Assembly: GCA_938007965.1 (NCBI GenBank)
Contig: CALLMH010000001.1
Coordinates: 1 to 64,000, forward strand
Length of the DNA: 64,000 nt
Direction: 5' to 3'
DNA from: an uncultured Saprospiraceae bacterium
GTDB lineage: Bacteria > Bacteroidota > Bacteroidia > Chitinophagales > Saprospiraceae
A model generated the notes under the pieces. The model saw only the letters and a list, made by a program, of their open reading frames with translations, searched no databases and was not told where the DNA came from. Position 1 is the stretch's first letter; each line of letters begins with the position of its first letter. Positions 13,440 through 37,874 of the stretch are shown piece after piece. A program made the position numbers and the translations under genes.

Positions 13440-15860
13440 TTATTGGTCAGTTATTTTTACTATTTGAACCCTTCTCTCTTTGCTAGCTCCGAGTCCATAT
13501 ACAGATTGAGACTTATCATTAGCTTTGTCACTTACATCGGATGGAGACGTTTCTTCACCGAATGATATATCAGTGATGATCAATTTCCCATTTTGCATAT
13601 ATTGTTGGAAGTAACCTCCCTCATATCTCAAGATCTCATTGGCTACACTGGATACCCTTCGCTGTCCTAGCGCTAGATTATATCTCGTATCTGCTACTGG
13701 TGAGGTATAACCTTTGATTGCGATCTCCAAGTTTCTACCCAATTCTAACTCTTTCTTGAGTGCTCTCATGAATCTCTTCAACTTTTCATATCCACCCACT
13801 ACATCTCCTTCGAAGAAAGATTCAATATTATCAGCAGCTAATTCTTTATTGGCCCCATTTTTCTTCTTGGTTCCATTTTTAATATAATCTTGCTTTTTAG
13901 CAATATAGTTAGAATAAAGATTTCCGTAGACCTCAGATGTTTCAGTCGATTTACTTCTCGGATTAGGTTGATCATTTTCAAAATATACGATTACCGGCAT
14001 ATAATCTTCTATATCGAATACTTCTAAGTACATCTTCCTCTCTATTAATCCAGGTTCGGTTACTCCAGTAAGGTCGATGATTTCGGTTTCAGTCACGAAG
14101 CCAAACTTCTCTGCAACGACCTCATATTTATATCCCAGCTCAGGATAAAAATGAAAATTGTTATTACTTTCATTGATAGCAACAGTATCTATTTCGCCAG
14201 TGGTGAGATTACGTATTGTGATCTGCACACCTACGAGCTCCTGTTCTGTTCGTTTATTGAATGTTTCAATTTTCAACTGCATCCTATTGGTCTTAAGATA
14301 GATCTTCTTATCTATTGCAGTAGACTCCGTAATACCAACAGTGCTTAAGTCTATCGTTTGGCTTTCATAAAATGGTCTGTCTACTACTATTTTATATTCT
14401 CTATCTTTTTTAACCTTGAAATAGAAATCATTACCATCTTCATTGGTCAGTGCATTTATAGTATCTCCTGTTACCGCATCTATGAGAGTTATCATAGCAC
14501 CTTCAAGTGGCTCTTTCGTGAAATCATCAAAAACCAATGCATTAAGATCTAGTATCACCTCATCATATTCTACTTTATAGATATCAAAACAACAAGCTTC
14601 TTTGGTAGGATCTAGATACATCGTACCTTCTCTATTAGTAGATAAGAACCCCTCATCTCCGGCAGCATTGAGCACATAATAAAGATCATGGAAACTACTA
14701 TTGACAGGAATTCTCATATGTTTGGGTTCGAGGTAATCTCCTTTTGATTTCTCAGCATAGTATACATCATATCCTCCTAATCCTCGTCTTCCATCAGAAC
14801 TAAAATACATAGTCCCCGTAGCTGTATGGTAGAAAGGTGTCACATCATTGTCCTTAGTATTAAACCGTTGTTGATTTTCGGGATCACTATAAGAATCATT
14901 TTCGCCGATTACTGTTCTGTATATATCTAATCCCCCTTGACCACCGACTCTGTCGGAGACGAAGTACATAACGTCTTTCATCAATATAGAATCAAATGAA
15001 ACTTGTGGTTGGGTGTTTGTTACTGAGTCTATATTGATAGGTGATGGCAATTTCTTTTGCGTTCCAAAAGAACCGTCTTCATTGACAAATCGACTGTAGA
15101 TATCACAACGTACGTCTTCGCCATTGATATATTCACAGATTGTATAGTACATCGTAGACCCGTCAGAACTGAAAGTAGTATGCGCTATTAGACTATTAGA
15201 GTCATTGATATCTCCATCTATAACCTGATTGGTCTCATCTTCTAATGTATGCAACTTAGATATGCTTCGTGCAGGAAACTCGGGAGAATCCTTTTCAACA
15301 TATTTCATTGTGGTGAAGTATAATGTCTCATCCTTTTTCACCGCCCCAAATTCAGAATATGGAGTATTTACCTCAGATTCTAACTGGACCAAATCAGCAC
15401 TTTTATCTATATCTTCTAACCTAGAAAGCGCAAATTCTATAGATTCCAATTCTTTATTGGCACTTATTGTTTTTAGAGAATCGGTGTTACTATATTCTGC
15501 GAGATACATATTATAGTAAGATTTGGCATCTTCATACCTCCCTAGTTTATAATATACCTCTCCAAGTCTGTAAGCAGCATCAGGATATTTATCTTCACCT
15601 AAAGAATCAACTACTATTTTATAATTTGAAGCCGCTATTTTATATGCTTCGAAATTTCTTGCTGATTCTGCAACTTTGAATATTAAATCTGGATTACTTT
15701 CATCAAACTCAAGAGCTTCGGAATACCACTTGAGTGCACCGTAGTAGTTCTTCTGAGCATACGCTTCGTCCGCAGCTTTGAGAAAAGCTTTTTGCGTCTG
15801 TCCCGATACGGTACTTATTGCAAATACGAATATTGCTATTATTGATATATATTTCTTCAT
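13440..15860 (-). CDS. OmpA-family protein with TPR and PD40 repeats
   Basis: 806 residues from the ATG at 15860, which gives the signal peptide MKKYISIIAIFVFAISTVSG. The longer frame overlaps the upstream gene and is less likely. Order: TPR-like helices (about 20-130), WD40/PD40-type beta-propeller repeats (about 170-420, with YFSSDGRRGLGGYDVYYAE), two carboxypeptidase-regulatory-like Ig folds (about 440-620) and a C-terminal OmpA peptidoglycan-binding domain (about 650-806, NLALGQRRVSSVANE). This arrangement is typical of the partner found beside PorP/SprF genes in Bacteroidota. It probably ties the surface protein machinery to the peptidoglycan. It lies 23 bases before the end of the signal-peptide-less extension of the adhesin frame, so the genes are surely co-transcribed. 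Confidence 0.9.
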   Translation of the reverse strand: MKKYISIIAIFVFAISTVSGQTQKAFLKAADEAYAQKNYYGALKWYSEALEFDESNPDLIFKVAESARNFEAYKIAASNYKIVVDSLGEDKYPDAAYRLGEVYYKLGRYEDAKSYYNMYLAEYSNTDSLKTISANKELESIEFALSRLEDIDKSADLVQLESEVNTPYSEFGAVKKDETLYFTTMKYVEKDSPEFPARSISKLHTLEDETNQVIDGDINDSNSLIAHTTFSSDGSTMYYTICEYINGEDVRCDIYSRFVNEDGSFGTQKKLPSPINIDSVTNTQPQVSFDSILMKDVMYFVSDRVGGQGGLDIYRTVIGENDSYSDPENQQRFNTKDNDVTPFYHTATGTMYFSSDGRRGLGGYDVYYAEKSKGDYLEPKHMRIPVNSSFHDLYYVLNAAGDEGFLSTNREGTMYLDPTKEACCFDIYKVEYDEVILDLNALVFDDFTKEPLEGAMITLIDAVTGDTINALTNEDGNDFYFKVKKDREYKIVVDRPFYESQTIDLSTVGITESTAIDKKIYLKTNRMQLKIETFNKRTEQELVGVQITIRNLTTGEIDTVAINESNNNFHFYPELGYKYEVVAEKFGFVTETEIIDLTGVTEPGLIERKMYLEVFDIEDYMPVIVYFENDQPNPRSKSTETSEVYGNLYSNYIAKKQDYIKNGTKKKNGANKELAADNIESFFEGDVVGGYEKLKRFMRALKKELELGRNLEIAIKGYTSPVADTRYNLALGQRRVSSVANEILRYEGGYFQQYMQNGKLIITDISFGEETSPSDVSDKANDKSQSVYGLGASKERRVQIVKITDQ

Positions 15861-15883
15861 GTTGTACATGTTCATGTTCGTGA

Positions 15884-16906
15884 TTAATAGATTGGACACA
15901 CCTTAAATTCTTTCAGCGGCTTCACATTCGTAATTGTATACCTAAAGTGAATTTCTAGTGCTCCTCTTCTACTGTCTTCTATTGTATTAAAATTCGTCCC
16001 ATCAATATCATAATTGGCCCCCACATAGTATTGATTGTACTCTATCGCTAATGTTGGGATTAGTGATCCTGCTGTTCTATATCCCATTCCGATATGAATC
16101 TGAGTTTCTTTTCCTCTTTTTTGACTTACGTATAGCTTGGCTAGTCCTCCTATGATGGTCTCTCTGTATGCATCTTGCATCTGCTGTAATGCATGGACTT
16201 GTATATCAAGGATATCTACTACATAAAAAGAGGCAATTCCAGTGAAGTTAACATTGATCGGTAATTTTTGATCTTCATTGTTATAGAAGCCAGCACTAGG
16301 TCGTAATAAGTGAAATGCGCCTACACCTAAATCTAATTTAGTCCTACTACTTCTTTGATATCTATAATTAAGTCCAAGTCCTGTTTCTAGAAAATATATC
16401 CTCTCTGTATCGAAGTTTTCTCCTGATCCTAAACCACTATTGAAGGTTACTCCATTCCATTGTTTATCCCATGTGAGATCATTGGGTGCAAAACCTCGCG
16501 TAGAAAAACCAACCGTTGCACCTGCTGTAATTATATTTTGTGCATTTAATATTCGACTGTAGCTTCCTGAAATATTAAGGTTACTTAGGTTTAGTCTTGA
16601 GTCTCCTTGTCTATCATGGAAAAAATTTATACCACCTGACCAAAAATATTTTTCTGACTTTTTGGGGAGGAATTTTTGATCATAAGCAGCACCTAACGTA
16701 AACCATGGTACAGGTACCCACCTCCATTGATCTCTGGTATTACCCATGAACCTTTGGTCGCCCTTAAATATCCCTGTCAATGCAGGATTTGTTGTTTGCG
16801 GGGAATTGTAAAATTGGGAATAATGCAAATCCTGCCCCACTAGCTTATCAGATGAAAAAATATTCATCGCTAGAATGGTTAATACTATGTAAATCAAATT
16901 CTTCAA
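15884..16906 (-). CDS. PorP/SprF family type IX secretion outer-membrane protein
   Basis: 340 residues with a TTG start (16906) and a signal peptide (MKNLIYIVLTILAMNIFSS). The mature start DLHYSQFYNSPQTTNPALTG is the family signature, followed by beta-barrel strands. SprF in Flavobacterium is needed for secretion and attachment of the giant adhesin SprB. PorP in Porphyromonas is a T9SS component that binds the cell-surface type B sorting domain. Here it is the first gene of an operon with an OmpA-like gene and a cargo protein with a type B domain, so it is probably the dedicated surface anchor or translocation factor of that cargo. A -7 box lies 42 bases upstream. Confidence 0.92.
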   Translation of the reverse strand: MKNLIYIVLTILAMNIFSSDKLVGQDLHYSQFYNSPQTTNPALTGIFKGDQRFMGNTRDQWRWVPVPWFTLGAAYDQKFLPKKSEKYFWSGGINFFHDRQGDSRLNLSNLNISGSYSRILNAQNIITAGATVGFSTRGFAPNDLTWDKQWNGVTFNSGLGSGENFDTERIYFLETGLGLNYRYQRSSRTKLDLGVGAFHLLRPSAGFYNNEDQKLPINVNFTGIASFYVVDILDIQVHALQQMQDAYRETIIGGLAKLYVSQKRGKETQIHIGMGYRTAGSLIPTLAIEYNQYYVGANYDIDGTNFNTIEDSRRGALEIHFRYTITNVKPLKEFKVCPIY

Positions 16907-28629: not shown

Positions 28630-29223
28630 TTATTTGGTTTTGATACTGCATCCGATTGCTTTTGTCATAGCAGGATCAGGATTTTTGCCAGCTTCTAGTG
28701 CGTTGATCGCATTCGCCAAGAATCTTTCGTCAACCTCATCAGCATTTCTAGCATTATCATCAATAGCTCCTATATACTTCACTTGCAGCTCCTTATCTAA
28801 GAGGAATACGTGAGGTGTTTTAGTCGCTCCGAATACTGGATACAATTGCTGTCCTTCATCGATCAAATACGGAAAATTAAATTTCTTTTCCTCAGCTCTA
28901 ATAATCATATTTTCAAATGAATCATCCGGCTTCACTTCAGGGTCATTTGGATTTATAGCTACTACATGATATCCTTGAGGGCCAAACTCATTTTGTAGCG
29001 CCACCAATCTATCTTCGTACATAATTGCATATGGACAGTGATTACATGTAAAGGTTACGATGAATCCTTTCGCGTCCTTCATATCCGCAAGTGAATGCAT
29101 CTTACCGTCTACCCCCTTGAGAGAAAAGTCTTTTGCAGTATCGCCTATTTTGTATCCGTTTTGTGCAGATACAGTTACGCCTATCAGCAGAGCAAGTAAA
29201 ATGGTATTTATTAGATTTTTCAT
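28630..29223 (-). CDS. Secreted redoxin-domain protein (AhpC/TSA-like)
   Basis: 197 residues with a signal peptide (about 1-20, ending TVSAQNG). The redoxin fold is clear: IGDTAKDFSLKGVDGKMHSL, then the active-site-like TCNHCPYAIMYEDRL. The CNHCPY motif puts it with the thioredoxin-family proteins annotated as redoxin or peroxiredoxin-like, found across Bacteroidota. The second half KTPHVFLLDKELQVKYIG holds the cis-proline. Probably a periplasmic thiol-disulfide or peroxide-handling protein; substrate unknown. It is followed in the opposite genome direction by a second thioredoxin-like gene 21 bases upstream, so the two form an operon. Confidence 0.85.
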   Translation of the reverse strand: MKNLINTILLALLIGVTVSAQNGYKIGDTAKDFSLKGVDGKMHSLADMKDAKGFIVTFTCNHCPYAIMYEDRLVALQNEFGPQGYHVVAINPNDPEVKPDDSFENMIIRAEEKKFNFPYLIDEGQQLYPVFGATKTPHVFLLDKELQVKYIGAIDDNARNADEVDERFLANAINALEAGKNPDPAMTKAIGCSIKTK

Positions 29224-29244: not shown

Positions 29245-29733
29245 CTAATTATTAAATAAAACTAACATCTCTTCTTCTATTTCAAAAGTGGAATGAAACT
29301 CTTTTTCGAAAAATAATTTCTTATCTCCTTTCAATATTAATGTAATAGGAATCGCACCCGACCAACTGGGATCAACCTTATCGATCCAATTATTCGCCTT
29401 GCCATCCGCTAATAATACAACTTTACTCTTGATTTTGTTCTTGGTTAGAAATGGGATTACCTTACTTTCTAGTTTTTTAGGATCATCTAGACTCACGAGT
29501 ATTTGTTTGAATGCTTGATTAGAATATAGCGCATTCAATTCTTCGAAGTAAGGAAGTTCTTTGATGCATGGACCGCACCATGTAGCCCAAAAGTTGACAA
29601 CGTAAGTTGTATCAGCACTGATGTTTGTTAGGATTTCTTCTTCCATATCGTCAAATTTCTCGTATACTTTGACTTGTGCATCACAGTAACTAAGGATACA
29701 TGACAATATTAATATTATAAAACTACACTTCAT
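29245..29733 (-). CDS. TlpA-like thioredoxin-fold protein
   Basis: 162 residues with a signal peptide (MKCSFIILILSCILSYCDAQ). The cysteine in its last part could also act as a lipobox, but the context is weak. The thioredoxin active site FWATWCGPCIKELPYFEE and the cis-proline region GAIPITLIL are intact, so it is likely an active periplasmic reductase of the TlpA/ResA class. Such proteins support cytochrome c maturation or copper-site assembly. The divergent neighbour trio includes a di-haem cytochrome, which would need reduced CxxCH cysteines. That link is only inferred from position. Confidence 0.85.
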   Translation of the reverse strand: MKCSFIILILSCILSYCDAQVKVYEKFDDMEEEILTNISADTTYVVNFWATWCGPCIKELPYFEELNALYSNQAFKQILVSLDDPKKLESKVIPFLTKNKIKSKVVLLADGKANNWIDKVDPSWSGAIPITLILKGDKKLFFEKEFHSTFEIEEEMLVLFNN

Positions 29734-29869
29734 TTTTATCGATTTTATAAGATGAAACTAATATAATGTCTTTCTTAATATGTATTGAGATTTAATTAAC
29801 ATAAAAATGATCTATTTAAAAATCATAAGTAGAAAACACACGTTACTTTTACAGAATCAAATTCTATAC

Positions 29870-30607
29870 ATGAATCCATATAAATTATTTTTCATCTTTA
29901 TTGCTCTTGTTTGTTTTTCAAGTTGTGGAGAACAAGAAGAGCCCAAAGGTGATCTCAGCCTCAAGATGAACCTTATATACAACGGTGATCCTCTTGTTAT
30001 GTTTCAAGATTATGAATATCCGGATGGACGAACAATCAACTTTTCGAGATTCTCATTATATATATCAGATTTAAAATTAGACGAAACATTGATTTCTGAT
30101 GTAGAATTTCACAATCTCACAGAAAGCCATGTTGACTTATCAGGTGCCAATGAAGGTTATGAATGGATGCTAAGAGACCTCCCTACCAAAGAATACAGTC
30201 AAATGAGCTTTGGTGTCGGCGTCAATGAAATAGAAAACGCAAAAGATCCTGGCACATTTGAATCTGGTCATCCTCTGGCCAAGCCTGGTGAGCATTGGTT
30301 CAGCTGGAATAGCTTCATATTTCTAAAATTAGAGGCCAATATGGATACGAATGGAGACGGCATAAAAGACTTACCCATCTCTCTACACTTAGGAGATGAT
30401 GATGCTTATCGAGTGCTAACATTCGATGAGAATATTACAATAACAGAAAATAATATAACATCATCTAAAATAAACATAGACATCTATGAGTTACTTGGTG
30501 GTGCGAACGAAACGTACGATATAGAGACCAATCCTCAAATACATTCGCTAGGACAAAAAGATGCAGTGATTGAACTAGCAAACAACATCTCAAATAGTAT
30601 TTTCTAA
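29870..30607 (+). CDS. MbnP-like lipoprotein, first copy
   Basis: 245 residues from the ATG at 29870. That start gives a lipoprotein signal ending LVCFSSC; the longer frame adds 21 polar residues. The body matches the MbnP family: early beta strands (SLKMNLIYNGDPL), FSRFSLYISDLKL, then EHWFSWNSFIFLKLE, which corresponds to the conserved MxWxW..GY.F.K.E stretch, and ISLHLG. A loop DTNGDGIKD resembles a calcium-binding EF-hand loop. MbnP is a copper-related periplasmic protein whose conserved Trp is oxidised to kynurenine by the di-haem enzyme MbnH in methanotrophs. Here it heads a three-gene set with a second MbnP and an MbnH-like gene. Confidence 0.8.
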   Translation: MNPYKLFFIFIALVCFSSCGEQEEPKGDLSLKMNLIYNGDPLVMFQDYEYPDGRTINFSRFSLYISDLKLDETLISDVEFHNLTESHVDLSGANEGYEWMLRDLPTKEYSQMSFGVGVNEIENAKDPGTFESGHPLAKPGEHWFSWNSFIFLKLEANMDTNGDGIKDLPISLHLGDDDAYRVLTFDENITITENNITSSKINIDIYELLGGANETYDIETNPQIHSLGQKDAVIELANNISNSIF

Positions 30608-30667
30608 TTGTACCGTAGGAATTAGAAATACATTAAGCGTAAAGATTAACAATTAAAAAAAATATAA

Positions 30668-31426
30668 ATGAAGAGTTTAAGATTATGTTTGGTTGCACTT
30701 TTGGCAGTATCATTTTTTTCATGTGGAGAAGATGAGAAAAACAAAGATGTAAGCGTGAAATTAGAAATGGTCGTCGGAGAAGAGGGCTTGGTAAACGGAA
30801 GGACATACAATATCAATGGTGTCGATGTACAATTCACCAATGTAGCATTCTACCTCGGTGATATGACATTTAGAAATTCTGACGGATCTACTTTTGTAAA
30901 TCAAGGTGACAATAGATACCAATTGATCAAACCTGGCATCTTTGACTATGACTACAGTATACCTTTCGTAAAGGATGGTGGTGATGTCTCTCTTGATGAA
31001 GTATCATTTATAGTGGGTGTGGATTCAGAAACGAATAATGACGACCAGATGACCTTCGAGATGAGGCCTATAGGTGATCCATTAGGACAACAAAATCCTA
31101 CTATGCACTGGGGTTGGATGGGAAAATATAGATTTATGAATATCGATATAGATGCAGATCTTGATGGTGATGGTGTATTCGGCGAAGATGACGAGAAACT
31201 AGTCTATCACCTAGGTAAAGATGCATTCTTAGGAAATATTACCTTGAATCCAAATGAAAAGCTAGAAGGTGGTGCCAATGATTTTAGAATCAACGTAGAT
31301 TTCGAGAAGTTACTTGATGGCATCGATTTCAATACAGAGAAGTTTACCAAAGCGGGCACTGATGAGATCGACTTGGCCAATAAGTTATTTAATAATTATT
31401 CATCAGCGTTTATATTTGAAAAATAA
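30668..31426 (+). CDS. MbnP-like lipoprotein, second copy
   Basis: 252 residues. The lipoprotein signal ends VSFFSC, with CGEDEKNKD as mature start. Family stretches are VQFTNVAFYLGDMTF, NPTMHWGWMGKYRFMNIDID and LVYHLG. The MHWGWMGKYRF segment is closer to the MbnP consensus than the matching part of the first copy. A loop DADLDGDGVFGEDDE resembles a calcium site. The gene follows the first copy by 60 bases and overlaps the di-haem gene by 11 bases, so all three are likely co-transcribed. The two copies have diverged strongly, so they are probably separate substrates or partners and not a recent duplication. Confidence 0.83.
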   Translation: MKSLRLCLVALLAVSFFSCGEDEKNKDVSVKLEMVVGEEGLVNGRTYNINGVDVQFTNVAFYLGDMTFRNSDGSTFVNQGDNRYQLIKPGIFDYDYSIPFVKDGGDVSLDEVSFIVGVDSETNNDDQMTFEMRPIGDPLGQQNPTMHWGWMGKYRFMNIDIDADLDGDGVFGEDDEKLVYHLGKDAFLGNITLNPNEKLEGGANDFRINVDFEKLLDGIDFNTEKFTKAGTDEIDLANKLFNNYSSAFIFEK

Positions 31427-32471
31427 TCAAAATATAATATCGATATATAGACTGGCATCATGTTTCATGGTGTCAGTTTTACTTTTAGGCTGTGTCGACA
31501 CCTCGCCGACTATAGATATGTCTGTTTATCAAGTAGATATCCGACCAAGTTGGCCTGATATTCTGATTCCTGAGAACAATCCAATGACTGCCGCTTCAGT
31601 AGCATTTGGGAAGCAGCTATTCACAGACAAACGGCTATCCATAGATTCTACTATCTCTTGCGCAAGCTGTCATAAATCAACGAGCGGTTTTGCAGATTCA
31701 GTACCGTTTTCTATTGGTGTCGGAGGCAAATTAGGATTTAGGAATAGTGGAAGCCTCACCAATGTTGCCTATCTCCCCTATTTCAATAGAGATGGTGGTG
31801 TCAAGACACTTGATCGGTTCTCATTGGTACCTATCGAGGATCATGCAGAGATGAACCTCAATCTAATAGAAATGACTCATAGATTAATGCATGATGAATC
31901 TTATGTCAAACTAGCCAAGACCATATACAATAGGACGCCTGATGCATTTAGTGTTTCTCGTGCTTTGGCTTCTTACTTGAGGACTTTTATCAGTGATGAT
32001 AGTCCATATGATAGGTACGTATATGATGGAGATAGTACTACGCTCACCCCAAGTCAAAAGCGTGGTTATGATCTATTCTTTGGCCCTAGGGCTAAATGCA
32101 GTACATGTCACAATGGGATAAATCTGACCAACTACACATTCCAAAATAATGGTCTATACGCTGACTACAAAGGAAAAGATAGAGGCAGGCAAAGAGTAAC
32201 AGACGACCCTAGGGACGAAGGTAAATTCAGAGTGGCAAGCTTACGAAATATATCACTCACTGCTCCATATATGCACGATGGTAGCCTTCCTGACTTAGAT
32301 GCCGTATTAGATCACTACATAAACCATGGAGTACCACACGAGAATAAAAATCCTATAATTGATGAAATCCAAATTACGAGATCAGAAAAGGAAGATTTGA
32401 TTTCATTTCTAGAGGCTATGACAGATGATGCATTCATTAGAAATAATGCTATTGTCACTTTAGGAGAGTAG
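31416..32471 (+). CDS. Di-haem cytochrome c peroxidase of the MauG/MbnH type, lipoprotein
   Basis: 351 residues if the TTG at 31416 is used. This start gives a proper lipoprotein signal (MKNNQNIISIYRLASCFMVS, then LLLGC with the lipid Cys at 26). Later ATGs leave too short a signal. Two haem-binding motifs are visible: CASCH (82-86) and CSTCH (228-232), in CCP/MauG order. The YMHDGSLPDLDAVLDHY stretch near the end is also typical. Classical members reduce H2O2; MauG and MbnH instead oxidise residues on a protein partner. Placement next to two MbnP-like genes argues for the latter. It overlaps the end of the GH113-like gene on the other strand by 17 bases. Confidence 0.87.
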   Translation: MKNNQNIISIYRLASCFMVSVLLLGCVDTSPTIDMSVYQVDIRPSWPDILIPENNPMTAASVAFGKQLFTDKRLSIDSTISCASCHKSTSGFADSVPFSIGVGGKLGFRNSGSLTNVAYLPYFNRDGGVKTLDRFSLVPIEDHAEMNLNLIEMTHRLMHDESYVKLAKTIYNRTPDAFSVSRALASYLRTFISDDSPYDRYVYDGDSTTLTPSQKRGYDLFFGPRAKCSTCHNGINLTNYTFQNNGLYADYKGKDRGRQRVTDDPRDEGKFRVASLRNISLTAPYMHDGSLPDLDAVLDHYINHGVPHENKNPIIDEIQITRSEKEDLISFLEAMTDDAFIRNNAIVTLGE

Positions 32472-33579
32472 ACTCCGAACATTCTTTTCCATACCATTTT
32501 GCCATAGTGTTTTCTGCACTTTTATATCGAGGAGTGAAATCCATCTTACTATGCGTGTGATCTACGTCATGATCAACATGCCATTGCCAAAAATACATCC
32601 CTGCGAACCATTTCTTAACCCAAAGTTCTTGAAAAAGCGCCTCATATGCTAGATTCTGGATATGATTAGAGACAACATTCGTCGTATCATTTACTACAGA
32701 ATCCCATAGCCATGGTTCTATTGTAGCTATCTCATCGCTTCTGTACCCTATCTCAGTAAATAAGATTGGCTTCTTGTATTTTTTGGAGATATTTTTTAGC
32801 TTCTTGATGTGCTTTTGCCACCCATTTTTAATCTGTGATAAGCTGGGATTTCTATTATTAGTAAGTGGATAATATGCCTGTATTCCAATGTAGTCCATTT
32901 GACCCCAAAATTTGATATCGCCGATTTCATCATCCCAATTCATAGCATAGGTAAGCTTACCTCTATATACGCTCTTGATTTCAGATATAAGTGAATCCCA
33001 TAACTCCGGCTGCGCATTTATCGATGTTTTCAATTCTGTACCAATACAGAACAAATCGACACCAGTATACTCTGCCAGCATAGCTTGATGTATCATGTGA
33101 TTCCGATATGAATCAAACCAAACAGACCATTCTTTCTTATTATCAAGTTGAATATTGGATCTCCATCCTTCTCTCATCCATATATGTGGCTTTAGAAATA
33201 TATGCATTCCCTTGGCTCGAAGATTATGGATTGTTTTTATATACATGGAGTCATATCTCGACCATTCCCCTATATCTCTATCTCTAGGTCGTAGCTCTTT
33301 GGTTAATTCTGTTTCTTGGAATAAAAAAGGGATTATAGCCACATTCTCTATATTATTCTTGACCAATTGATCATATGGATCTGATGCGTCGCGGTGCCAT
33401 CCAAAAGCACTCATACCTCTATGTTTGCCATCTTTTGAATAGAAATTTTTAGTCTTTCCTGTATGGTTTTCAACAGACATATCCCACTCAAAAAAGTAAT
33501 CATCATCTCGAATAGAGTGAGATGCACATTGACCCAACATCAAAATAGAAAGTAATAGGTATAAAACCTTGATCGACAA
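32455..33579 (-). CDS. GH113-like glycoside hydrolase lipoprotein
   Basis: 374 residues with a TTG start (33579) and a lipoprotein signal (LLLSILMLGQC, Cys18). The rest is a TIM-barrel glycosidase: GMSAFGWHRD at the first strand, FLKPHIWMREGW, then FCIGTELKTS with the likely acid/base Glu182 and PILFTEIGYRS with the likely nucleophile Glu276. MYFWQWHVD near the end completes the sugar-binding side. The best family fit is GH113, which contains beta-mannanases; many Bacteroidota relatives are untested. It is probably attached to a membrane and faces the periplasm or outside. It sits just after the TonB receptor gene but 107 bases away with its own start. Confidence 0.75.
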   Translation of the reverse strand: MSIKVLYLLLSILMLGQCASHSIRDDDYFFEWDMSVENHTGKTKNFYSKDGKHRGMSAFGWHRDASDPYDQLVKNNIENVAIIPFLFQETELTKELRPRDRDIGEWSRYDSMYIKTIHNLRAKGMHIFLKPHIWMREGWRSNIQLDNKKEWSVWFDSYRNHMIHQAMLAEYTGVDLFCIGTELKTSINAQPELWDSLISEIKSVYRGKLTYAMNWDDEIGDIKFWGQMDYIGIQAYYPLTNNRNPSLSQIKNGWQKHIKKLKNISKKYKKPILFTEIGYRSDEIATIEPWLWDSVVNDTTNVVSNHIQNLAYEALFQELWVKKWFAGMYFWQWHVDHDVDHTHSKMDFTPRYKSAENTMAKWYGKECSESTLLK

Positions 33580-33686
33580 TATGGTTAAGTTTAAGGTTAG
33601 CTTATTGTGTTCGTGTCTGTATGCATATATTTACTTTTTTTACATCAGGATTGATCACTTTGGATACACTAAAATAGCAATAAATA

Positions 33687-36314
33687 TTAAAATGCGTATC
33701 CTACATTTAGATTTGGTAATATAGGGAACAAACTGGTTTTGCGAGCCTCTGTCCTGCCGATCGTTGGACTTTCGTAGATGTATATAAAGAACGGATTTTT
33801 TCTGTTGTATACATTGTAGAGACCTACGTGGAGGAAGAATTTACTAGATTTATCATATTTTTTTTCGTAGTTAAATTGAAAATCTAAGTGATGAAAAGGT
33901 TCTTGTTGATAGTTATTCCTTGGTCCACTTGTTGTTAGCACTCCAAAATCAGATCTGATTTCTTCTATTGCCAAAGAAAAGAAATTACCAGATCCATATA
34001 CCCAGTTGCTTGAAATCGAGCAACTATTATTGATTTTGTATTTGATGCCAACGTTTATATCATTTCTACGGTCAAACTTGTAAGAGAAAGGCGCACCATT
34101 ATCAATATCTTCAAATGATCTATCCGTCTTGGCGAGTGTATATGCTGCCCAGCCTGTCCATGTTCCGATATTTTTTTCAATTTGTATTTCAAAACCACGG
34201 CTTGTACTACCACCTTCTACTACATGATTTCTCCAGTCATTGTCTTCTTGCAGTATGATCGAAGGCTGATTGGTACTTCCGATTAAAAACAAATCGACAG
34301 CCAATTGGTATTCTAGTAGATTTTGCATCCTTTTATAATAACCTCCCATAGTAAAGTATAAGCCCTTACCAAGCTTTCTGGAATACGATAGGCTAAGTTG
34401 ATCCGCTGATTCGGGTTTAAGCTCATCAGTACTCGGCACCCATAGATTCGATGATATACCTATACCAGGATTGACCAAGAGATGGACATACTGTACCATC
34501 TGAGTATACGATAGTGTAAGTCTATCTTTATTACCAGGCTTAAATATCGCACTCAATCTAGGCTGAGAATTTGAATACTGACTTGAACCTACGTTAAATC
34601 TTGCCAAATGAAGCCCCGCATAAAATTCCCAATTCTGGTTTGGACTATATGTATCTTCTATATACGATGACAGTTCATCCGCATTGATTAGTGAGTTATT
34701 AGTACTGACCGTCTGCGCCTGCCCGGTTATCATTTGACTACTATTTATTATCGGATTGTATCTATGATATATCCAGCCCGCTCCAAATTTCATCACATGC
34801 TTATCAGACAAGTAGTAATCAAAATTAACATTAGCGAGAATATCCTCGATCTGAGAAACAGAGGTCAACTCAAATTCTGCCGACGAACCTAAGTTATTGA
34901 CCACAGAATTGAAACTATATGAGCCTCTAGAAGTGTATCTATAATCTACACCTCCTAGGTTCATAGATAGCTGAAGCTTATCATTTACGATATTAGATAG
35001 GTTTAGATTCCACATTTGCGAATCCCAATTCATATTGATATCACTGGTCGTCCTGAAGATGTCATTGTTTGTATTTTCGTCCGAAAGATCTCTGAACAAA
35101 TTGAGGTTGTCTCTGCCTTTAAAATAACTAAATGATAATTTTCTAGAAGGAGAAAAATGGTGTGTCATCTTAGCCAACACATCACTGTATCCGATGTCGA
35201 TATCATAATTGATCAAATCTCCAACCACATCATCGAAGTAAGTATCAATATAAGAAATACGTCCTGAAAGATTGAATGTCGTTTTACTATTCAATATTGG
35301 GCCTTCTAGATGAGCTTTCACAGTCGGCAGTGATGCAGAGACTGTTCCATGCACACCAGAGTTGTTACCGTCTTTCAACTTTACATTGAGCACAGATGAC
35401 AATCGACCGCCATATCTAGCTGGAAATCCATTTTTTATAAATTCAATATTTCGAATGCTTTCTTCTATAAAAATACTAGAGAGACCAGCTGCATGATTGA
35501 CTTCATATAAAGGAACACCTTCTAACAATACGAGATTTTGATCTTGACTTCCTCCACGTACAAATAGACCCGGATTGCCTTCATTGCCCGATTGTACCCC
35601 AGCATTTACTTTGACAGCTTGGAGTAGATCGTTTCCTCCTGCAGTAGATTGAAAACCTTCGGTAAGGGAGAGATCTATCTTTCTTCCCCCCGACCCTAAG
35701 AGGTAGTTATCAGATATAGATTCTTTGATGATTATTTCAGTGAGTTCATTATCAAAATTCATCAACACTTCAATATCAGTATCGATAAAACTATCCATGT
35801 ACATAGACTCATAGCCTAAATAGCTAAACCTAACCCTACTACTGTCTCTAGGGATCGACAAACTGAAAAACCCTGACTCTGCACTGAATGTGGATGAAAA
35901 AGTATTTAATTCTAAGATAGTAGCCCCTACAATAGCTTCTCCTGACTCCTTATCTCTCAGGTATCCTCTAATCCTAATTAATGGATCTACTTTGTCATTG
36001 AGAAATGTAATAAGCACTTTATTCTTACTCGGAGTGAGCTTCAATGTGCTATTATAAAATAATAATCGTGTAAGCTCTTCTAATGTAAGTGGTTCCTTGG
36101 GAAGTACGATTACTTCATTTAGATCTACTCTTGAACTGTTGAATGAAAGAGAAATATTTTCTTGTACAAATAGGTTATCCACATGACCCAGCAAGGTATT
36201 CTCATTGAAAGATAAGAGAACTTTTCGGGATAGTATATCATCTTGTGCTGTTGAACAGATACAAATCAAACAACAGACGCATAGTAGCCATATTTTCTTA
36301 TGGTCTACGCACAT
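33687..36314 (-). CDS. TonB-dependent receptor with STN signalling domain
   Basis: 875 residues. After a signal peptide (1-24) come a secretin/TonB N-terminal (STN) domain (about 30-105), a carboxypeptidase-regulatory-like domain (about 112-195, YLRDKESGEAIVGATI), a plug (about 205-330, with LVLLEGVPLYEV and GFPARYGGRLSSVLNV) and a 22-strand barrel ending in an aromatic residue (NVGYAF). STN-bearing receptors pass ligand binding to a FecR anti-sigma factor. Its gene lies one base upstream, followed further upstream by an ECF sigma gene. No SusD partner is next to it, so the ligand may be something other than a polysaccharide. The adjacent GH113-like gene keeps a sugar possible. Confidence 0.92.
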   Translation of the reverse strand: MCVDHKKIWLLCVCCLICICSTAQDDILSRKVLLSFNENTLLGHVDNLFVQENISLSFNSSRVDLNEVIVLPKEPLTLEELTRLLFYNSTLKLTPSKNKVLITFLNDKVDPLIRIRGYLRDKESGEAIVGATILELNTFSSTFSAESGFFSLSIPRDSSRVRFSYLGYESMYMDSFIDTDIEVLMNFDNELTEIIIKESISDNYLLGSGGRKIDLSLTEGFQSTAGGNDLLQAVKVNAGVQSGNEGNPGLFVRGGSQDQNLVLLEGVPLYEVNHAAGLSSIFIEESIRNIEFIKNGFPARYGGRLSSVLNVKLKDGNNSGVHGTVSASLPTVKAHLEGPILNSKTTFNLSGRISYIDTYFDDVVGDLINYDIDIGYSDVLAKMTHHFSPSRKLSFSYFKGRDNLNLFRDLSDENTNNDIFRTTSDINMNWDSQMWNLNLSNIVNDKLQLSMNLGGVDYRYTSRGSYSFNSVVNNLGSSAEFELTSVSQIEDILANVNFDYYLSDKHVMKFGAGWIYHRYNPIINSSQMITGQAQTVSTNNSLINADELSSYIEDTYSPNQNWEFYAGLHLARFNVGSSQYSNSQPRLSAIFKPGNKDRLTLSYTQMVQYVHLLVNPGIGISSNLWVPSTDELKPESADQLSLSYSRKLGKGLYFTMGGYYKRMQNLLEYQLAVDLFLIGSTNQPSIILQEDNDWRNHVVEGGSTSRGFEIQIEKNIGTWTGWAAYTLAKTDRSFEDIDNGAPFSYKFDRRNDINVGIKYKINNSCSISSNWVYGSGNFFSLAIEEIRSDFGVLTTSGPRNNYQQEPFHHLDFQFNYEKKYDKSSKFFLHVGLYNVYNRKNPFFIYIYESPTIGRTEARKTSLFPILPNLNVGYAF

Positions 36315-36315
36315 A

Positions 36316-37332
36316 TTAACAGTCAGAAGATGAAACGATGTAGATATTGTCCACTACTTTATACTTCAGTCCGTGAGTAGTGCTAAATTCATTTAGTATA
36401 TCCTCGAGACTCGAATTGTCAAAAGTCGTTTTGACATTACAATTTTTAAATAATTTAGGATCACTTAGCCTCACCTCTTTACCAAAGTGTCTAGACAAAG
36501 CTTCTACTACATTATTCATCGTATTGTCATTAAATATGAGTCGATCATTCTTCCAACTGCCATAGTTGTCATCATTCATGGCGAATCTTTCGACTGTATT
36601 ATCGACCACTTGTATAAACTCCCCCGCGACTAAGGTATATGTTGTTCCTTGAAATTTGTAAGCCACACTTCCTTCTTCGACGAAAATCTCCGTTGTATTA
36701 TCATCGGCTACGATGGTAAACTCTGTTCCCAAGACCGTTACTTCACCAACGGGAAGGTTAATTTTGAACTGTTGTGATTCATCACGCGCTACGTCAAAGA
36801 ATGCACGTCCTTTGAGACTTACCTTTCTTTTGTCTTTAGCTCTTAATTTTGATTTTTTATCTAGCATTACTTCTGTACCGTCCAAGAGGTCAACACTCAT
36901 TGATTTCTGATTTGCTGCGTATTCTCTTACTTCGAATGTATTATTTTCGGTTTGATTATTTAGTAAAAATAATGCTCCAAATGCTAAAACGGCAATTGCG
37001 GCTATTCTTGATAATGTTTTTAGGTTTATTACGCTTGTTTTTTGAGACTCGCTATTGGTCTTAGTTTGGTTTGCATTCGACGTTAGTTCATTATCGTTAT
37101 TGAAAGTGGAGTCTTCGTTCTCTTGAAGTTTATTTTCAAAGGCTGTCCACGCTTCATCTTCATTAAAATCGGCGTATCCGCTGAGTGTATCTGACAACTT
37201 CGATATTTTTTTCATATCTGCCAGAGCCTTCATGTTTTCTTCCGCTTCTTTTTTCCATGCATCAAGGGCTGATTTCTCATCTCCTATAGAAGCGTCTCCC
37301 ATCACTTTACCTATTATTCGATCTATATTCAT
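36316..37332 (-). CDS. FecR family anti-sigma factor
   Basis: 338 residues. An acidic cytoplasmic N-terminal part (about 1-105) is followed by one membrane helix (about 108-125, AAIAVLAFGALFLL), the periplasmic FecR domain (about 145-240, with AFFDVARDESQQFKINLPVG and VLGTEFTI), and a C-terminal DUF4974 domain (about 262-335). The order is standard for Bacteroidota. The protein should hold the ECF sigma factor and release it when the TonB receptor's STN domain signals. It lies 23 bases after the sigma gene and one base before the receptor gene. Confidence 0.95.
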   Translation of the reverse strand: MNIDRIIGKVMGDASIGDEKSALDAWKKEAEENMKALADMKKISKLSDTLSGYADFNEDEAWTAFENKLQENEDSTFNNDNELTSNANQTKTNSESQKTSVINLKTLSRIAAIAVLAFGALFLLNNQTENNTFEVREYAANQKSMSVDLLDGTEVMLDKKSKLRAKDKRKVSLKGRAFFDVARDESQQFKINLPVGEVTVLGTEFTIVADDNTTEIFVEEGSVAYKFQGTTYTLVAGEFIQVVDNTVERFAMNDDNYGSWKNDRLIFNDNTMNNVVEALSRHFGKEVRLSDPKLFKNCNVKTTFDNSSLEDILNEFSTTHGLKYKVVDNIYIVSSSDC

Positions 37333-37355
37333 TTCTCTTTTCTTCTTAGCATTTT

Positions 37356-37874
37356 CTATGCATCCAATTCGGATAGTCTACTTCCCATTATATCACGCAA
37401 TTTGCGATATGCTTTACCTATTTGATTTTCTACAGTTTTTACAGAGATATCCAGGTCTTTAGCTATCTCGTTGTAAGTTAGTCCATTGACTTTGTTTAGC
37501 ACAAATATTTCTTGACATTTGGGTGGTAATTGTCGTATCGACTTATACAGAAATTCCTTTAGCATGAATTTCCTCGCCTGTTCTTCATGATTATCATCAT
37601 AATGATCATTATAATCTACAGTAGATACTTTTTGATCATTTCTCTGTTTTCTCAATACTTCGATCGATCTATTCTTGACCGCTTGAAACAAATAGCTTTT
37701 TTCGCTCGTGCCTATTGAGATTTCTTTTCTTTTATCCCAAATCTTAGTAAATACATCCTGAACTACATCTTGTGCCACCTTGTGGTCATTCACAATGGTA
37801 GAAGCAAAATTACAGAGCGGATTATAATATTTCTTAAACAATGCTTTGAATGTATTTTTATCTATTTGTTCCAA
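37356..37874 (-). CDS. ECF RNA polymerase sigma-70 factor
   Basis: 172 residues with a TTG start at 37874. Region 2 (about 10-75, FKKYYNPLCNFASTIV and the DVVQDVFTKIWDKR core-binding motif) and region 4.2 (about 112-165, LPPKCQEIFVLNKVNGLTYNEIA, then ISVKTVENQIGKAYRKLR) are both complete. It belongs to the Bacteroidota FecI-like sigma group (bacteroidetes type 1). It should drive its own operon with the FecR and TonB receptor genes. Confidence 0.95.
   Translation of the reverse strand: MEQIDKNTFKALFKKYYNPLCNFASTIVNDHKVAQDVVQDVFTKIWDKRKEISIGTSEKSYLFQAVKNRSIEVLRKQRNDQKVSTVDYNDHYDDNHEEQARKFMLKEFLYKSIRQLPPKCQEIFVLNKVNGLTYNEIAKDLDISVKTVENQIGKAYRKLRDIMGSRLSELDA

Follow-up and report, generated by a model that had tools for sequence, protein, structure and literature searches.

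Two MbnP-fold lipoproteins of separate classes are encoded with an MbnH/MauG-like di-haem enzyme in a Saprospiraceae bacterium

Can one di-haem enzyme serve two different partner proteins? This question is raised by three consecutive genes in a 64,000-nucleotide stretch of DNA from an uncultured Saprospiraceae bacterium (the whole stretch is called the window below), which encode two MbnP-like lipoproteins and an MbnH/MauG-like di-haem lipoprotein. The first Trp of the W-x-W motif is the kynurenine precursor in characterized MbnP, and, to our knowledge, kynurenine copper sites have been characterized only in methanotrophs. We favor, at a probability of about 0.5, a reading in which the locus encodes a kit of the MbnP-MbnH type for binding metal at the cell surface, with a shared di-haem enzyme and kynurenine copper sites on both lipoproteins. 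The non-methanobactin setting noted in the original prediction was confirmed, since the MbnB family (PF05114) had no match in this genome, which is rated 100% complete, and did match two control genomes. MbnP-MbnH pairs outside methanobactin producers have already been described (PMC3621798). The features of the locus are as follows.

28630..29223, minus strand: AhpC/TSA (redoxin) family protein (synteny in the same-genus genome)
29245..29733, minus strand: TlpA/ResA-like thiol-disulfide oxidoreductase, divergent from MbnP1 (synteny in the same-genus genome)
29734..29869: 136-bp spacer separating MbnP1 from the thiol-disulfide gene, presumed home of both promoters
29870..30607, plus strand: MbnP1, class B MbnP-fold lipoprotein, 245 aa (PF20243, class B clade, model), with lipobox C19, Trp143-x-x-Trp146, His173 and His225 (sequence, column table)
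30290..30322, plus strand: MbnP1 motif EHWFSWNSFIF, residues 141-151
30668..31426, plus strand: MbnP2, class A MbnP-fold lipoprotein, 252 aa (PF20243, model), with lipobox C19, Met146-His147-Trp148-x-Trp150, His181 and Lys228 (usually His)
31103..31135, plus strand: MbnP2 motif MHWGWMGKYRF, residues 146-156, the W-x-W form
31349..31351, plus strand: MbnP2 Lys228 codon (column table)
about 31416..32471, plus strand: MbnH/MauG-like di-haem c-type lipoprotein (PF03150 142 bits, TIGR04039 263 bits)
31788..31790, plus strand: Arg125 codon of the di-haem enzyme (aligns with 1eb7 residue 94)

The three genes are closely spaced, as predicted: 60 bp separate MbnP1 from MbnP2, and the enzyme frame overlaps the end of MbnP2 by 11 bp if it starts at TTG 31416. 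We infer this start since none of the ATG codons would yield a complete signal peptide; the TTG would yield a normal lipoprotein signal. The three expected lipoprotein signals were found (lipoboxes FSSC19 in MbnP1, FFSC19 in MbnP2, and LLGC26 in the enzyme), as were the two CxxCH motifs, at enzyme residues 82-86 and 228-232. Promoter and terminator scans of the locus gave nothing above chance, and the 136-bp region contained no consensus site.

Both lipoproteins matched the PF20243 (MbnP) profile above its cut-off of 27 bits (72.8 for MbnP1, 73.1 for MbnP2), and the enzyme matched PF03150 (141.8 bits, cut-off 25.6). In contrast, all three missed the NCBIfam equivalog cut-offs: TIGR04052 (MbnP_like_WxW) scored 24.1 bits for MbnP1 and 34.7 for MbnP2 against 140, and TIGR04039 (MbnH) scored 263.1 for the enzyme against 362.85. 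Canonical controls, taken from known pairs from Pseudoalteromonas, Methylocystis, and Trichormus plasmids, passed in the same test (152.6 and 264.4 bits for TIGR04052; 485-559 for TIGR04039). Thus, the predicted profile matches hold for the families but not for the equivalogs. Single-sequence PDB searches with MbnP1 or MbnP2 found no relative, and the solved MbnP structure 7l6g was reached only via profile and fold comparison. The AlphaFold models of MbnP1 (pLDDT 94) and MbnP2 (pLDDT 89) matched 7l6g with Z scores of 15.8 over 200 residues and 16.6 over 202 residues, respectively, and with a Foldseek E of about 1e-7 for both, while the next-best matches were far behind (Z 6.2 and 5.5 for the two models). 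The models indicate that MbnP1 and MbnP2 are both true MbnP-fold proteins. Conserved Cys residues are present in the aligned canonical MbnP proteins; the four-Cys set of the metallo-mystery-pair protein is absent here, the only Cys residues of MbnP1 and MbnP2 lying in the signal peptide or lipobox.

The divergence of the two lipoproteins was evident from their 26% identity. In a tree of 109 MbnP-like sequences, including three canonical ones, computed by quick search with the motif columns removed where recognized, MbnP1 sits in a 43-row class B clade (SH-aLRT 98) and MbnP2 in a class A lipoprotein clade of 24 rows (support 98). The two partner classes separated long ago. Class A also includes a set of longer proteins, of which the single one scanned (L077) has a type IX secretion tail at its end. 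The third class, class C, includes the lone third MbnP of this genome, which lies on another contig (G000:C30; L092:3349-4164); this MbnP-fold lipoprotein is without any site residue and has a Cys-rich N-terminal stretch (GCLDPEATNY...CDDCC). Of 150 Saprospiraceae genomes sampled, 146 had a match to PF20243 and 143 had one to the enzyme at the limit applied.

The original prediction treated EHWFSWNSFIF in MbnP1 as a looser form of MHWGWMGKYRF in MbnP2. Both stretches are present, but the former follows the usual class B motif, E-[YH]-W-x-x-W-x-S-[YF]-I-F, and by its sequence MbnP1 is not merely a loose MbnP but a member of a separate, conserved class of paralogues that has a motif of its own. 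The possibility that MbnP1 is a decaying copy was ruled out by its own clade and by the retention of Trp and His in 43/43 relatives.

Residues were counted in a column table over 45 class A, 43 class B, 3 canonical, and 18 class C proteins. The first motif Trp and the His of the HLG stretch are both invariant in class A (45/45), class B (43/43), and the canonical proteins (3/3). A third site near the C-terminus is His in 42/45 class A and 42/43 class B proteins, and Met in the three canonical MbnPs. The Met two residues before the Trp occurs in all class A proteins, in two of the three canonical proteins, and in no class B protein; the second Trp is at +2 in class A and canonical proteins and at +3 in 36 of the 43 class B proteins. 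In class C, the Trp remains in 4 of 18 proteins, the second site has no His among the listed letters, and the third site is gapped in 18/18. Since these residues are kept together in classes A and B and lost or degraded together in class C, the alignment suggests one joint site, formed by the Trp/kynurenine together with the first His and the residue at the third site. The copper of 7l6g is reportedly (Manesis et al.) held by His, Met, and a solvent molecule with the kynurenine close by, and the alignment suggests that His225 of MbnP1 lies in the column of this Met.

MbnP1 lacks W-x-W and the Met, has W-x-x-W (Trp143-x-x-Trp146), and holds the full Bacteroidota set of Trp143, His173, and His225. 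MbnP2 has W-x-W (Trp148-Gly-Trp150) and keeps Trp148 and His181, but has Lys228 at the third site; the Lys is also found in the same-genus relative (L072). Judged by the aligned site residues, the textbook-looking MbnP2, and not MbnP1, is the incomplete copy. Met146 or His147 of MbnP2 may replace the missing third residue. In CorA and MopE, Cu(I) is bound by kynurenine and two His (PMC3912023).

In 14 distinct Saprospiraceae-type loci, the window included, a class B gene, a class A gene, and a di-haem enzyme gene stand in this order (L122 has an extra ORF in between). The order is a conserved arrangement and not an accident of this genome; these loci ruled out a triad private to it. Elsewhere, a long class A MbnP is followed by an Arg-type and then a Trp-type di-haem enzyme (L077, L080, L086, L094, L097, L098, and others).

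The assignment of the third gene product as an MbnH/MauG-like di-haem protein was supported by the PF03150 match, the CxxCH motifs, Glu145, which aligns with residue 114 of P. aeruginosa CCP (1eb7), and Tyr301, which aligns with MauG 294, the axial Tyr position. Arg125 aligns with CCP residue 94. We take CCP Glu114 to be the distal Glu and CCP Trp94 to be the residue between the haems, so that the inter-haem Trp is replaced here. The MauG profile (TIGR03791) scored 165 bits against a cut-off of 444. The narrower identity as MbnH held only at the level of the PF03150 superfamily, as the enzyme is below the TIGR04039 cut-off, lies outside the canonical MbnH clade, and lacks the inter-haem Trp. 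In a tree of 120 enzymes, computed by quick search with the inter-haem segment removed where recognized, the Arg/Lys enzymes are in one 51-row Bacteroidota clade (SH-aLRT 99) that includes a small number of rows whose residue differs or was not read, and five canonical MbnH proteins group apart from it (support 100). Canonical MbnH has a Trp one residue earlier in the alignment than the Arg125 position. In the aligned set, the inter-haem position is Arg or Lys (Met in one case) where the enzyme gene immediately follows a class A MbnP gene, and Trp where it follows a class C - class B pair or is the second of a tandem. The five other PF03150 enzymes of this genome all have a Trp near the inter-haem place or in the same stretch. 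As read from the alignment, Arg/Lys at this site is characteristic of a Bacteroidota clade whose genes adjoin those of class A MbnPs. In the plasmid collection, a di-haem enzyme (L185:3007-4158, NZ_CP047243.1) is annotated as "methanobactin export MATE transporter MbnM", as are the di-haem enzymes of matches H3, H9, and H26; for L185 the name is wrong, because its TIGR04039 (MbnH) score is 559 bits.

MauG is thought to need its inter-haem Trp for Trp oxidation at a distance. BthA has Ser at this position, yet forms bis-Fe(IV) (PMC6405878). Arg125 is therefore compatible with catalysis. In the reading we favor, the peroxide-driven enzyme would take electrons from Trp148 of MbnP2, giving kynurenine, and would probably also oxidize Trp143 of MbnP1 to kynurenine. 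Because Arg125 occupies the inter-haem position, electrons would cross between the haems without a Trp relay, as in BthA. Kynurenine and a nearby His (His181 in MbnP2, His173 in MbnP1) would complete a copper site, joined in most relatives by a second His (His225 in MbnP1), and the surface-located lipoproteins would bind or hand on copper. Our more specific proposal, that an enzyme without the Trp relay matures both a W-x-W site and a Met-free W-x-x-W site with two His as in CorA/MopE, is tentative. MbnP1 without W-x-W and Met, MbnP2 without the third residue, and an enzyme below the MbnH cut-off and outside the canonical MbnH clade all speak against the reading we favor.

These features are also compatible with a division of labour in which only MbnP2 is modified, while MbnP1 stays unmodified and serves as a metal-binding or partner lipoprotein via its two His and Glu141, an alternative we regard as possible but unlikely. 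Class B never has the Met, and its second Trp is shifted by one. The Arg/Lys-type enzymes of the aligned set are encoded next to class A, whether or not class B is present too, and none is next to class B only. Class B has no di-haem neighbour in the eight examined regions L187-L194, two of which have a Fur-MerC-HupE setting. Since class B is found alone or beside a Trp-type di-haem enzyme, the enzyme of this locus need not be its partner. However, the first Trp is invariant in class B, including proteins encoded at a distance from any class A gene, and many loci have class B as the gene adjoining a di-haem enzyme.

The enzyme could instead be mainly a peroxidase guarding the surface from H2O2, with the MbnPs supplying electrons or metal and left unchanged by it. 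Its PF03150 family is consistent with such a role, and divergent redoxin genes adjoin the triad; the order of the TlpA/ResA-like and redoxin genes is kept in the single same-genus genome (64% and 74% identity). ResA-type proteins serve cytochrome c maturation. Moreover, BthA turns over H2O2 without an inter-haem Trp (PMC6405878). In contrast, Tyr301 at the MauG axial position, the tight linkage of the enzyme to class A MbnPs, and the invariant candidate Trp of the partners argue against this role, which we consider improbable.

Surface lipoproteins of Bacteroidota tend to have an acidic export signal after the lipobox Cys (PMC5080379). The sequences after the lipobox are CGEQEE in MbnP1 and CGEDEK in MbnP2, with three acidic residues at +2 to +6, which suggests that both lipoproteins are most likely on the cell surface. 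The enzyme N-terminus, CVDTSP, has one acidic residue and no clear surface signal; the enzyme and its partners could end on opposite sides of the outer membrane. Class-wide lipobox counts came from a crude finder, and the acidic-signal trend across relatives is only indicative.

The operon contains no copper gene, which speaks against the reading we favor. At other loci, a HupE/UreJ_2 gene directly precedes the triad (L096), and a Fur-family regulator, MerC, HupE/UreJ_2, and a class B MbnP lie in a row (L189:5818-8383), with overlapping HupE and MbnP frames; L194:5597-8422 has the same gene clusters (by clustering, the families having been scanned in L189 only). This row is likely a metal-regulated operon, and such neighbours point to metal handling, as the favored reading would have it, but not to copper alone, with zinc or another metal possible. 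A product other than kynurenine (hydroxy-Trp, or a Trp-Tyr or Trp-Trp link) with a metal other than copper would agree with the MerC, Fur, and HupE neighbours, with the different setting of the two Trp residues in the class B W-x-x-W, and with Arg/Lys at the inter-haem site. However, MbnP2 retains the canonical W-x-W, Met, and His, and the fold is the same as that of 7l6g; we consider this alternative highly improbable.

Convergent to the triad, the minus strand of the window encodes an ECF sigma factor, FecR, a TonB-dependent receptor, and GH113 (32455-37874). The FecI-FecR-receptor set (33687-37874) was rejected as an MbnI-MbnR-MbnT equivalent, as it is convergent, lies beyond the GH113 gene, and matches in kind but not in kinship. 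A sigma-FecR-receptor set also occurs in L188, immediately after a class B gene, and its receptor is 31% identical. The window also encodes, by eye, a PorP/SprF-like and OmpA-like pair as in type IX secretion/gliding loci (13440-16906, minus strand).

This study provides a conserved two-partner version of the system, in which one partner belongs to a class of its own and the enzyme to a clade whose inter-haem residue is replaced. It defines a large Bacteroidota branch in which a partner class stands apart, the third ligand position differs, and the enzyme has no inter-haem Trp, and the locus is a natural test of whether the Trp relay is required when the substrate is a partner protein. If the two-site reading is true, Bacteroidota would have a lineage of surface kynurenine copper proteins with their own electron path and partner logic.

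Compared with MbnP-MbnH of Methylosinus trichosporium OB3b (7l6g, 6e1c) and the TIGR04052/TIGR04039 pairs, this locus shares the partner fold, first Trp, and His, the second Trp and Met being common to MbnP2 only; the enzymes share two CxxCH, the distal Glu, and the axial Tyr, and the genes are adjacent in both. It differs in having two partners per enzyme, lipid anchors, the Met-free W-x-x-W of MbnP1, His/Lys instead of Met at the third site, and Arg at the inter-haem site, and in lacking the four-Cys set, equivalog-level scores, and methanobactin genes. The CorA/CorB system of Methylomicrobium album and MopE/SACCP of Methylococcus capsulatus each have a surface Cu(I) protein with kynurenine and two His, and CorA and MopE are co-encoded with a di-haem peroxidase (PMC3912023). 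The likeness to them is one of proposed site composition and not of demonstrated descent; MopE and CorA were absent among the listed fold matches of both models, although they may still be kin. MauG resembles the enzyme in its di-haem fold, Glu, and Tyr ligand position, and oxidation of Trp in a partner protein is MauG's; here, the inter-haem Trp is replaced, the TIGR03791 score is well below cut-off, and no methylamine dehydrogenase gene was seen among the window ORFs read. BthA of Burkholderia is alike in its PF03150 family, Tyr-His haem, and absence of a Trp between the haems (PMC6405878). It differs in having Ser at that site and in being described as a peroxidase, whereas the enzyme here has Arg and its gene follows two MbnP genes.
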